From assembly GCF_001632365.1 (NCBI RefSeq), contig NW_024468535.1, positions 312,893 to 376,892 on the forward strand: DNA of 64,000 nt, in the 5' to 3' direction. The stretch's first letter is position 1. Every line of letters starts with the position of its first letter. Below the pieces are notes generated by a model, which was given only the letters and a program-made list of their open reading frames with translations, was not told the origin of the DNA and did no database searches. The position numbers were made by a program, and so were the translations under genes. Of the stretch, positions 5,891-25,876 are shown in pieces. Origin of the DNA: Laetiporus sulphureus 93-53 (lineage: Eukaryota; Basidiomycota; Agaricomycetes; Polyporales; Laetiporaceae).

Positions 5891-6021
5891 GCCATCGTTC
5901 TTCAGCCATCACAACCTGCGAGTAAGAATGTATCGATAGGTATCGCTACACGAGACACAGTGAAATGCATCGTCACGACTATTCTGCTCTTCACACGATC
6001 CCGATGCCACAGATCTGGCCT

Positions 6022-8000
6022 TCATTTCGCGGCGTCCGCGTCGGCCGCAAGAATTTCGTTCGCGCGCTCTATCAGTGCCGTCTCGCTCGCGTCTGCATCT
6101 GTGGGTACTTCGAATGGGGCGAAGCCAAGCACTCGGCGGGCATCCAGACCCATGGAGCGGACGTCCCCCGTCCCCGCGCGCCCGACAAAGCGCGACTCGC
6201 CTTCGCCGATGGGGAAATCCCTATGGGTATGAATGAACCAGCTTGAGTAAGAGATGAAAGAGGGTTTAATGAAGCGAGGTCCGACTCACGGGGCGGGAAG
6301 GCCAGCGAGGAAAGTCTCACGTTGAGTGCGGAGGTATCTGGCGCTGTGAAACCGTTGCGCTCAACTAATCTACCCAACGATCCTGATGAGGAAGGCGGAA
6401 GACTCACTTGTACTCTGTGAGAGGTGTGGCAGGTATGTATATCACGGAAGAATCCTCCCTGCCGTTGTGCTCGTTCTCAACTGCGTGAACAAGGTCGCAG
6501 TGCCCTGGTAAAATGCATCAGCAGTCCTCCCGATTCGCGTGCCCGGCGAACGCACAGTAGACTTGATCTCCGGGTTCAACCTTTGGGATGCTCACGATCG
6601 TCTTCGCAAGCTTCAGATGTGGGTGCGTCACGCCGCTCAGATACTGCGTTCTTCCCGGGCGGCTGCCAGGGAACGCGCTGCTCGTTAGGTCGAGCTCCCA
6701 TTCATCCGCCGAGGAAGTGGCTGGGCGGAAGAACGGCCGGAGCATGATGTACGCGGTCGCCAGCGAGAGCAACGGAAGCACCCGCAACGTGCCCTCGTTC
6801 TGCGATGCGGTCGAGAGCGCCGTCCAGCCCTGCCAGGGACGGAAGACGGTGCATTGATTCCTGCGCGGGCATGTCAGACACAAGCGACGGGACTGTGCCG
6901 AGGTTGTAGGCAGGCACTCACGCAGCGTTGTACAGGTCCTGTCGCGCACCCAGCCGTGGGCTCGCGTCAAACGGATCGTGCGTGCGCCATCCTTCGCCGT
7001 CTGCGTCTGCGAGTATCGCGCGAAAACACGCGCGGAAGCCCGGGTCTTCCCAGCGCTCGATCCCGCCCCCGTCGATGTGCGGGCCGAGCGTGAACACGGA
7101 CGGGCCTGGCGGTCGCATACGCAGACGGTCGAAGTACGAGATTGGCGTGCGAAGGCTGACGGTATGTGCGAGCGAGGGGATGGGAGGCGGAGAAGCGTGC
7201 CAGAGGGAAAGGAGCGCTTTCTGCGTGCCGAGCAGCGCGGGATGCGTCCGTGCGCGGACTTGTGCGAGCGAGTTGTACAGCTCGTAAAAGACTATCTTTT
7301 CGGGGGGAGTACCTGTGTGCCATAATCGCGCAATTTTCGTGACTGCACGTGCGGATCGGCTTGTCCAAGGGCCTACCTGTGACGTGCTCCTTGTTCCTCG
7401 CGATGTAATCTGTGATAGACTCCTTCCACACTAATGCCTCCTAGATTCCGAAGCTGTCAGAAATTACATGGCAGTGAATGCCGCGCGGCCTGAAACGCAC
7501 ATCGCAAGGAACTCCGCCCTTGACAATTACCACGCCGCGGTGCTTGATGTCCTTGATTTGCTCATCGGACAGGCCACGTACAATGTCCGAGTAGGCGACC
7601 TGTGGGATGACCTGCCGCGCGAAGCGCTGTGAATCAACCCCAGAAACAGACTGCTCTGGAATATACCAACATCTGCTCCTTTCTGCTCGATCTCCGCAAC
7701 GGCGCCCTCGAGCTCCTTCAACACACTGCGCCATGTCTTCTCCATTGCTGCCGGATTCGTACAGATGTCTCTTTTCAACGCAGCAAAACGCGGCGGCAGC
7801 TCCTCGGGCTCATCCATAGGCTTATCGGATATGTCCTTGACTGTCCCTTCTTTCTTGGGGATTCGTAGCATATCCCCTGAGCCATTCGAAGGTTGGTGAG
7901 GTAGGGATGCGGAATTTGAGGCCATGACGGCAGTCGCATAGAGGCAGTGAGAAAGACGGGGCGACTTTGATGGGAGAGTCAGCACAAATTTCAAGTTCAT
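6022..8000 (-). CDS. DUF1479 family (YbiU-like) iron/2-oxoglutarate-type dioxygenase, complete copy
   Basis: Predicted non-heme iron oxygenase of the DUF1479 family; substrate unknown. Reading leftwards from 8000: a short N-terminus, then [12 protein letters not shown] and [13 protein letters not shown], both typical of the family. An exon with [20 protein letters not shown] (about 7600-7545) and [10 protein letters not shown] follows. A long exon holds [13 protein letters not shown] (near 7065-7030; the H-x-D iron ligands), and another holds [15 protein letters not shown]. Across a short intron the chain reads [15 protein letters not shown] (about 6565-6490), giving the distal iron histidine. 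The C-terminus ends [10 protein letters not shown] at 6022. At least six short GT-AG introns join cleanly, so the gene looks intact. The start may be 8000 or the internal ATG at 7925; the longer form could carry an organelle-targeting extension. Only this copy is complete; two 3'-end relics lie in the downstream tandem units. Confidence 0.85.
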
Positions 8001-8183
8001 AATCTCAGCACTCGGTACCGCTGTGTGCGACTATCGTCAGATGATAGTTTTCGACTAGGCTACCCATCATCCACGAGACTGACGGCCGTACGGCATCATC
8101 GCAGGCAGTCGATATAGCGCGGTGCGGCCCATACAAATGATGTTCTGCGGTGTCCACATGGCGCAGAAATATGGCAGGTCTCT

Positions 8184-23241: not shown

Positions 23242-24136
23242 GTATTCTTCTCCATTACTTGGCGTTCTCTATGCTGACTGGCACATTAGGCTGCACAGAA
23301 GCTTAGATCGTCCCCGCAGGGCAATAGGCACCAAGGACAGAGCATGCGTGAACAGACAATGGAGGGTGTTTCAGTTGTGTAGGGGTAGTTGGATTACGTT
23401 GAGAAATTGAGAATGTCGTTTGAAATGTCCATTTGCGTAAGAAAGTCTTCTCAATGTCACAATGCTTTCGAAAGGCGTGGTCGTCCTTATTTTTTCCGGG
23501 AGGACCTGTCATCGGTGTACCTGCGAACCAAGTCAGACCAGTCGAAAAAATAGAACATGATACGTGTCGGAGCATCACCAACTCTTCCTATGCACTGTAT
23601 ATCCCCGGCTCATGAGTGACTCAATAAGCCGCCAATGGTCACATCCTCAGCGTTTGAACACGCACTGCAGGACAATATGCAAGCCATGATCTCGGTGTCC
23701 CAGGAGATGCCCGTGGTCACATCGGTTGCCAGTGAAGCGAATCACAGTAACATATGGCCAAAGTGTAAGTCAGATGCCGACTAGAGGGTATACTGATAGA
23801 ATGCTATTGCCAGCAATTGCAGCATCGGAATAGATATCAAGTTGATTTACACAATGTCAAGCTCCCGAGACACTCTCGTGAGTAATTGTCGTTCTGAAAA
23901 CTTAGCATAGCTTGCTAATCATATCAAATCACATAACATCACAAGTCTAATAAGCATGGGTACCGTTAATCGATGTCGCAACTGACCCCTTGGAGAAACT
24001 CACCGAACACTGTATAAATCCCATTGCATCGTCCATGAATCTAGCAGAAGGCATAGATGTATGATCCAAACATAGCAAACGCACTCACGAACGGGTAGCA
24101 GACAATTCCACCAGCGGTCAATAGCATCTATCCTTC

Positions 24137-25876
24137 TCACCGCCCCTTCCTTCCCTCTTCGATCTGCGCACCAACCATCTGGCTCTCGAACTGGAAATGC
24201 CCAGACTTTTCTAGACGCCTGATCAATACATCGCCGAGTGCGCTCGCGGGAGTGAGGACGCCGCCCTCCCGCGCCAGCGGCGGCAGAGCGGTCTGATCGA
24301 GCAGCAGTGCTAACGCCGACTCGGAGATCATGACTGCGGATCGTATGTCATTACATGATCGCGAGAAGCGAGTGTGATCAGTTGCGCACCGGCGGTAAGC
24401 AGGTATCCTGGGTCTCCTTGACCGCGCATAACAGTCTTGATCTCAACTCGAGGCGTATCAACGCTGGGTGCGGATGATGTGTAGTTGATTGCTTCGAGGA
24501 AACCCTTCTCCATCGTTCTGTAAAGTTGATGAGGATGCCGCAGGAAAATCCTACGGACTCGCACGTACTCATTAGAAGGACCATCCCCGGGCTGCGTCAC
24601 CACCCGCTGGAACAACCATCGAACCTACCAGCAGATCGATTTTCTGCCTCGTGTGCAATGCGAACAATATGTACCACCCACCGGAGGCAAAAAGAACAGC
24701 ATCGCCAAGGACACATAGTATGCCAGACTCGCGAGCAACGCGTACGGCTTACTGGACGTGCTGTCAAAAACGACGCACTCCTGGTACGAAAGCGCTGGCC
24801 CGTAGCTCCGCGCCTCCTCCTCCTGCAAGTGGAACTTAAGCTTCATCGTCGCAAGCTGATGGAGGCCCCATGTCCGCTGCACAATCGCGATGTTTGGTTG
24901 TGCCATTGGATAGACCATCCCGTACTCGGGAGGGGACGCATACGGCACGGGGTAATATAGGCTGGTCCGCGCACTTGGAACGCCTTGAATACCTATCGAC
25001 GCATAGGAAAAACTCACTTTAGATGCTTTTAACCATGCATGAATAGGTGTTATGCGCACCAGTGCTCAGTGAATAGTCCGCTAAAGCTTCCGAAATGATG
25101 GGCGACGGGATGTCGAACGTGCTGGAAATTGTCGATAATGTTCCACCGGAGACACCTCCTGCTACGCGATAGACGGTCAGAGACTTGCCCAGCCCAGCGT
25201 GAGGTCCAGCAGCGGCTTTAACAGTCTTGTTCGCGAGGTAGACCAGGAGATCGGCTGGGACAGAGTCGAGTCCGCATGATGAGACAATGATTGCTTTGGT
25301 CTTGGTCGCGACGTAGTCCCAGCTGAATGGCAGAACATATCGAGTTTGTTGAGTTCTTGTCATAAAATGCATCTACGCCTGCTGCTTGATACTCACCGCA
25401 GAATCATGTGGCGAGTAAAGTGCGACTCTCCGCATAGATCAACGTAGTGCTTCCCATGTAATACGCACGCTCTTTGGAGCATGAGCTATGAGTCGCGAAA
25501 CAGAAGCCAACTCGTACCTGACTACCTCCGCACCCAATCTCCAATACGGTCCGACGGCACTGATAATGACCTTCGCGCTCTTGACTGCATCTTCGATCTG
25601 GTTACGCTCCGTGACATCTATTTGATACAGCTTGACACTTTGGTCCAGTCCGAGGCTGCGCTTGAGTTCCTCGAGCTTGGACTCGGACCTTCCAGCAAGT
25701 CCGAGGGTGAATGATGTCCGTTCGGGGTGGTTAACGAGGTGTCGCGTGATGAGGCGACCTGTAAAGCCTGGTACAAAACAAGTTGGATGTTAGAAGCGAC
25801 AATTAACGTAGCTGCCATAATCATGACCTCCCACTCCCCACTCACCGGTCGCGCCTAACACCAGGATATCAGTCAT
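24137..25876 (-). CDS. Saccharopine-dehydrogenase-like oxidoreductase (SCCPDH / trans-acting enoyl reductase type), paralogue A
   Basis: NAD(P)-dependent oxidoreductase-like protein of the saccharopine dehydrogenase-like group; true substrate unknown, and members are linked to lipid droplets or polyketide/lipid reduction. The start MTDILVLGATG at 25876 gives the Rossmann glycine motif. Next come RLITRHLVNHPERTSFTLGL (25748-25689), VISAVGPYWRLGAEVVRY (about 25570-25520) and HYVDLCGESHFTRHMIL (about 25450-25405). The hallmark SSCGLDSVPADLLVYL lies near 25285-25238, followed by AGGVSGGTLSTISSTFD. A hydrophobic segment YVSLAMLFFLPP sits near 24720-24680, and EAINYTSSAP and MISESALALLLDQ near the C-terminus, ending at 24137. 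About seven short introns join cleanly, so this copy looks functional. It closes tandem unit 3; truncated copies sit in units 1 and 2, and a complete inverted paralogue lies at 32296-34117. Confidence 0.85.

Follow-up and report, generated by a model that had tools for sequence, protein, structure and literature searches.

The window analysed here, a 64,000-nucleotide stretch of the genome of the wood-rotting fungus Laetiporus sulphureus 93-53 (chicken-of-the-woods; Polyporales, Laetiporaceae; contig NW_024468535.1, positions 312,893-376,892), carries three tandem units, each with a DUF1479 gene or its remnant, a gene for an eight-cysteine secreted protein (SP) and a saccharopine-dehydrogenase-like (SDH) gene or its remnant. 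Unit 1 occupies positions 5924-13056 of the window (7,133 bp) and unit 2 positions 13057-19122 (6,066 bp); unit 3 extends from 19123 up to the duplication breakpoint at 25566, with its whole SDH gene running on to 25876. The original prediction placed three consecutive units at 5929-25570 and proposed a self-comparison of the DNA; that comparison, together with a three-way alignment, shows the three tandem units and refines the edges to 5924-25566. Units 1 and 2 differ at 1,347 of 4,853 aligned sites (27.8%, with 114 insertions or deletions, here indels), units 1 and 3 at 1,220 of 4,998 (24.4%, 95 indels), and units 2 and 3 at 1,192 of 5,596 (21.3%, 100 indels). The array is real, since the similarity between units is far above chance, and a divergence of 21-28% is far too large for an assembly duplication. 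A collapsed or expanded repeat is therefore rejected with near certainty: there are 18-24 indels per aligned kb, all three units lie within one contig of 479,445 bases, and nothing was found in favour of an artefact. Repeat-induced mutation is ruled out as the main source of divergence, the ratio of transitions to transversions being only 1.29-1.61; a modest C-to-T or G-to-A excess is seen in units 1 and 2.

SP is encoded on the + strand at 11484-11753 (copy 1, 89 amino acids (aa) plus stop), 16934-17194 (copy 2, 86 aa plus stop) and 22981-23241 (copy 3, 86 aa plus stop), the C-terminus of copy 1 being three residues longer than those of the other two. As originally predicted, it is intact in every unit: all three open reading frames (ORFs) are open, each has eight cysteines in the order C-C-CC-C-CC-C, and a TATA box, ATATAAAGGC, lies 141-146 bp 5' of the ATG in every copy (+ strand, 11343-11352, 16789-16798 and 22835-22844, respectively). 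A putative intron in the 5' untranslated region (UTR), with a GTCAGT donor at 11410, 16856 and 22902, and a putative 3' UTR intron directly after the stop codon were identified by eye. Short, cysteine-rich and with an N-terminal signal peptide, SP is by these criteria a small secreted protein (SSP), length and cysteines having been counted and the signal peptide judged by eye, without SignalP. The encoded proteins differ at 24% (copies 1 and 2), 29% (1 and 3) and 15% (2 and 3) of residues. NCBI annotates copy 1 as LAESUDRAFT_231133 (window 11301-11753), a model that starts upstream and has no signal peptide, this having apparently been spliced out as an intron; the model is consistent with the 5' intron.

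Both neighbours of SP lie on the - strand, and each is whole in one unit only, DUF1479 in unit 1 and SDH in unit 3, as the original prediction stated. The whole DUF1479 gene (6022-7925; 8 exons, 496 aa) matches the PF07350 profile over positions 2-403 of 408, at 454.8 bits; the current Pfam name of PF07350 is Gig2-like, which we take to be the same family. Its last exon alone remains in unit 2 (13118-13313, - strand) and in unit 3 (19125-19410, - strand), with the same deletion endpoints: both units skip from approximately 6213-6220 to approximately 8074 in unit-1 coordinates, which is most simply read as one common deletion. The whole SDH gene lies at 24137-25876 (8 exons, 436 aa); its spliced model agrees at all 436 residues (100% identity) with an NCBI protein from L. 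sulphureus 93-53 and matches the PF03435 NADP-binding domain profile at 53.2 bits (cut-off 25.1). The remnants in unit 1 (12582-13056, - strand) and unit 2 (18177-19122, - strand) are cut at the same duplication breakpoint, the former also being internally deleted. Their alignments to unit 3 end at 25563 and 25566, respectively, within SDH exon 2 (25518-25767), and after both, within a few bases, comes sequence equivalent to position 5924; the inner junctions fuse SDH exon 2 (25563) to the DNA immediately beyond the DUF1479 stop (5924). Because the breakpoint lies in exon 2, the inner SDH copies have no exon 1, promoter or most of exon 2; they decayed further later, with internal deletions and broken frames. 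This common breakpoint was absent from the original prediction, as were the DUF1479 deletion common to units 2 and 3, the conversion-like tract described below and an SDH paralog at 32296-34117. The four "decayed" inner copies thus represent only two founding events, and the contrast between whole SP genes and broken neighbours is largely a product of the breakpoint position and one deletion.

Units 2 and 3 share a tract of raised identity around SP, at 16362-17566 in unit 2 and 22389-23615 in unit 3. Their divergence is 8-17% within it, non-coding DNA included, as against 22-25% outside, and the shift in site patterns across the tract is significant. The 3' flank of SP shows 8.1% divergence for this pair alone, the pairs with unit 1 standing at 26-27%. 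These patterns support later homogenisation of SP and its flanks in units 2 and 3, most simply explained by gene conversion or by a later short exchange.

Since the neighbours were lost through a breakpoint and a single deletion, their loss is not independent evidence for the selective retention of SP that was originally proposed. One could suppose that SP survived passively, as the only gene lying fully within the amplified unit and too short to be hit, with no selection needed; the truncation of the inner SDH copies at birth and the single event behind the DUF1479 loss both agree with this. What speaks for constraint, and makes passive survival improbable, is the pattern of change in SP itself. 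Not one indel falls in its first 255 nucleotides in any pair, although at the rates of the whole units 4.6-6.0 would be expected for each pair (Poisson P 0.0025-0.0105); for frame-shifting indels by themselves, the absence reaches only P 0.015-0.047 in each pair. The longest gap-free stretch of the three-way alignment, 284 columns (the next is 114), spans the SP ORF except for its last codons; outside the tract none of 6,979 windows, each 255 columns long, is gap-free, some owing to large deletions. When the observed substitutions were placed at random, all frames remained open and all 24 cysteines were kept in 15 of 20,000 simulations; for the pairs with unit 1, the frame and eight cysteines survived random substitution at the observed load in 0.2-0.6% of runs. 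These tests took changes as independent and the simple majority as the ancestor.

Several results weigh against constraint on SP. The same random-substitution test left frame and cysteines intact in 6.2% of runs for units 2 and 3. Conditional on open frames and retained cysteines, replacements fall only marginally short of the expected number (P 0.057). Within the tract shared by units 2 and 3 the ORF (8.9% divergence) is no more conserved than the 3' flank (8.1%), so that since homogenisation any constraint on copies 2 and 3 is invisible at the nucleotide level. The NG86 ratios of nonsynonymous to synonymous substitution rates (dN/dS) are 0.66 (units 1-2), 1.03 (1-3) and 0.63 (2-3), with bootstrap intervals all spanning 1, as passive survival would allow; a dN/dS near 1 had been named beforehand as the result that would refute selective retention, and this objection holds by half. 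As judged from these comparisons, the SP reading frame and cysteine scaffold are under constraint and other residues are not demonstrably so, the latter having changed at a rate near that expected under neutrality. Of the retention originally claimed, the part that stands is the one carried by the indels and simulations.

The trait under selection had been put down to either dosage or diversification. Selection for more of one identical protein would be in keeping with the retention, in every copy, of the TATA box and the proximal 300 bp of the promoter (which diverge from unit 1 by 16.0-17.5%, compared with 16.7-19.8% for the ORF and 25-31% outside) and with the apparent homogenisation of units 2 and 3. 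Dosage is nevertheless the weaker of the two, and rather unlikely, because the SP copies differ at 15-29% of residues; the dN/dS values of the mature region, 0.77 (units 1-2), 1.21 (1-3) and 0.62 (2-3), also count against it. Diversification fits better. Positive selection for it, as in effectors facing a host or competitor, is possible but doubtful and is not demonstrated: the cysteine scaffold is constant while other residues vary, and for units 1-3 the mature-region value of 1.21 stands against 0.35 in the signal peptide, but its interval runs from 0.50 to 3.60, both other pairs give values under 1, and the codons are few.

The mature SP, modelled for copy 2 only (16934-17191), is predicted to adopt the alpha/beta fold of the KP6 alpha chain, with a Z score just above the tool's chance range; by this fold criterion SP is predicted to belong to the KP6-like structural family. 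Zt-KP6-1 (6QPK) is a solved KP6-like effector (PMC9632046); it is not among the structural matches listed for the copy 2 model. In BFVD, the same model matches uncharacterised iridescent virus proteins, W8W1F8 (E 1.2e-4) and A0A068QK58 (E 2.0e-3), at probability 1.00. Searches of the L. sulphureus genome with three protein queries each led to the same four places, the fourth a distant copy on contig 62 (36236-36553; 34-36% identical). This paralog has the cysteine order of the array. MAFFT aligns seven of its eight cysteines, leaving the fifth, which is present, out of alignment; one extra cysteine lies in the unspliced ORF. Its TATA box is nearly the same in sequence, and its UTR splice signals are similar by eye. 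Its AlphaFold model has a mean confidence (pLDDT) of 44.7. No match to DUF1479 or SDH was found in the surrounding 10-kb locus.

Database searches, at the sensitivity used, found no named relatives of SP outside L. sulphureus. Searching with a single sequence gave 3 candidates, of which 2 were kept; with a profile, 152 candidates were reduced to 4: copy 2, the annotated copy 1, the contig-62 paralog and one partial match; copy 3 was not among the matches of either search. The partial match (85% identity across 48% of the query, from a contig of 391 bases) may be chimeric, because its N-terminal part matches DUF2851, just below the cut-off; no conclusion is drawn from it, though it is one of five rows of the alignment behind the structure model. 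The same database yielded 1,024 SDH relatives, many of the 120 matches listed coming from named Polyporales, so that proteomes of this type are present; the search requires shared 5-residue words, and fast-evolving SP relatives would therefore be missed. The SP copies have no Pfam match above the cut-off; a weak DUF7219 match of copy 3 (E 0.068 over 15 residues; 13.3 bits where the cut-off is 27) was given no weight. NCBIfam with the four proteins, and a PDB sequence search with their profile, each gave 0 matches. Among the papers listed by literature searches for KP6-like proteins of basidiomycetes or of wood decay, for Laetiporus SSPs and for tandem duplication, none was seen to deal with this locus.

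The explanation we favour, at a probability of roughly 60%, is that the locus encodes host-encoded KP6-like SSPs in diverging tandem copies, with neighbours cut by a breakpoint and a deletion. One rearrangement would have produced a tandem duplication, joining a breakpoint in SDH exon 2 to the DNA beyond the DUF1479 stop, so that every non-terminal SDH copy would have been born without its start. One copy would then have lost DUF1479 down to its last exon, and this shortened unit, with SP as its sole whole gene, would have duplicated again to give units 2 and 3; we infer this order because those units have the same junction and the same DUF1479 deletion. The SP frame and cysteine scaffold were kept while other residues changed near the neutral rate, and SP and its flanks in units 2 and 3 were probably later homogenised, most simply by gene conversion. 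SP itself is most likely a KP6-like SSP with diverging tandem copies; its mature form would take the fold of the KP6 alpha chain, which is frequent among effectors secreted by fungi and also occurs in an antifungal protein. From fold and setting we infer that it would be active extracellularly, antagonising other microbes within wood or at the interface with the tree, the array supplying diverging variants rather than mere dose. A more tentative proposal, on balance improbable, is a Laetiporus-restricted, host-encoded family with a mycovirus killer-toxin fold, tandemly expanded and diversified on a fixed disulfide scaffold in a brown-rot polypore, for fungal combat in wood. The SP family offers a tractable test case: its fold is predicted to resemble that of a killer toxin, a single genome holds three natural variants, and the history of their duplication can be read. 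It also carries a warning for tandem arrays: where breakpoints have cut genes, these look decayed, and counts of whole versus broken genes thus overstate selective retention.

Outside the array, the whole SDH paralog (32296-34117, + strand, opposite in orientation to the unit-3 gene; 440 aa) is 70% identical to the unit-3 protein, with a dN/dS of 0.12 at a dS (1.44) near saturation. A second DUF1479 locus lies on contig 14 (31583-33340), with stretches 27-43% identical to the unit-1 protein. That the spacer separating DUF1479 from SP holds another conserved gene is ruled out, its four ORFs (among 10 proteins searched) lacking any Pfam match at E up to 1; over the whole units about one third of indels have lengths divisible by three (34 of 114, 22 of 95 and 33 of 100 for units 1-2, 1-3 and 2-3), which also counts against such a gene. 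A dispersed repeat of approximately 230 bp is found at 8186-8421 (unit 1), 16166-16344 (unit 2) and 19507-19738 (unit 3), at the same place but in opposite orientation in units 1 and 3, and elsewhere, upstream of SP, in unit 2; it occurs in at least 40 places in the genome (40 of 59 candidates scored), at 69-86% identity apart from the query itself. Left of the array is ELP1-like sequence (Pfam ELP1 beta-propeller, E 0.00027, below cut-off). A 649-bp near-perfect palindrome at 47028-47676, 92% self-complementary, has at least 40 genomic places (of 74 candidates, 40 were scored; the copies other than itself are 92-97% identical) and by these features is a high-copy foldback or MITE (miniature inverted-repeat transposable element)-like element. 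Two diverged duplicate pairs, 67-68% identical, are also present, one inverted (40189-41150 with 42001-42970) and one direct (51867-52143 with 56741-57017).

Among known systems, CFEM proteins have eight cysteines, as does SP, but no Pfam CFEM match was found for the SP copies or the contig-62 paralog, and this assignment is ruled out; the UniRef name of the paralog begins "Extracellular me", and equating that name with CFEM is a guess. Hydrophobins resemble SP in being secreted and having eight cysteines. Their cysteine order is C-CC-C-C-CC-C instead of C-C-CC-C-CC-C, and with this difference and no hydrophobin match in Pfam (E up to 10), SP is ruled out as one. Hydrophobins often form multigene families, according to a passage in PMC3879219. 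The SSPs of wood-decay Polyporales, numerous in their genomes (430 in Phlebia radiata) and with a role in saprotrophic wood decayers that is still enigmatic, as described in PMC6540522, are like SP in size, signal peptide and cysteine content. SP differs from them in having no Pfam match above cut-off and, at the sensitivity used, named relatives in L. sulphureus alone. The KP6 killer toxin is a virus-encoded, processed alpha/beta heterodimer. Its alpha chain (PDB 1KP6, 4GVB; Ustilago maydis virus P6) is 16% identical to SP, and SP is ruled out as the toxin proper, each copy being one ORF of 86-89 aa carried by a fungal contig: the SP genes are chromosomal and host-encoded, and they lie beside intron-bearing genes.
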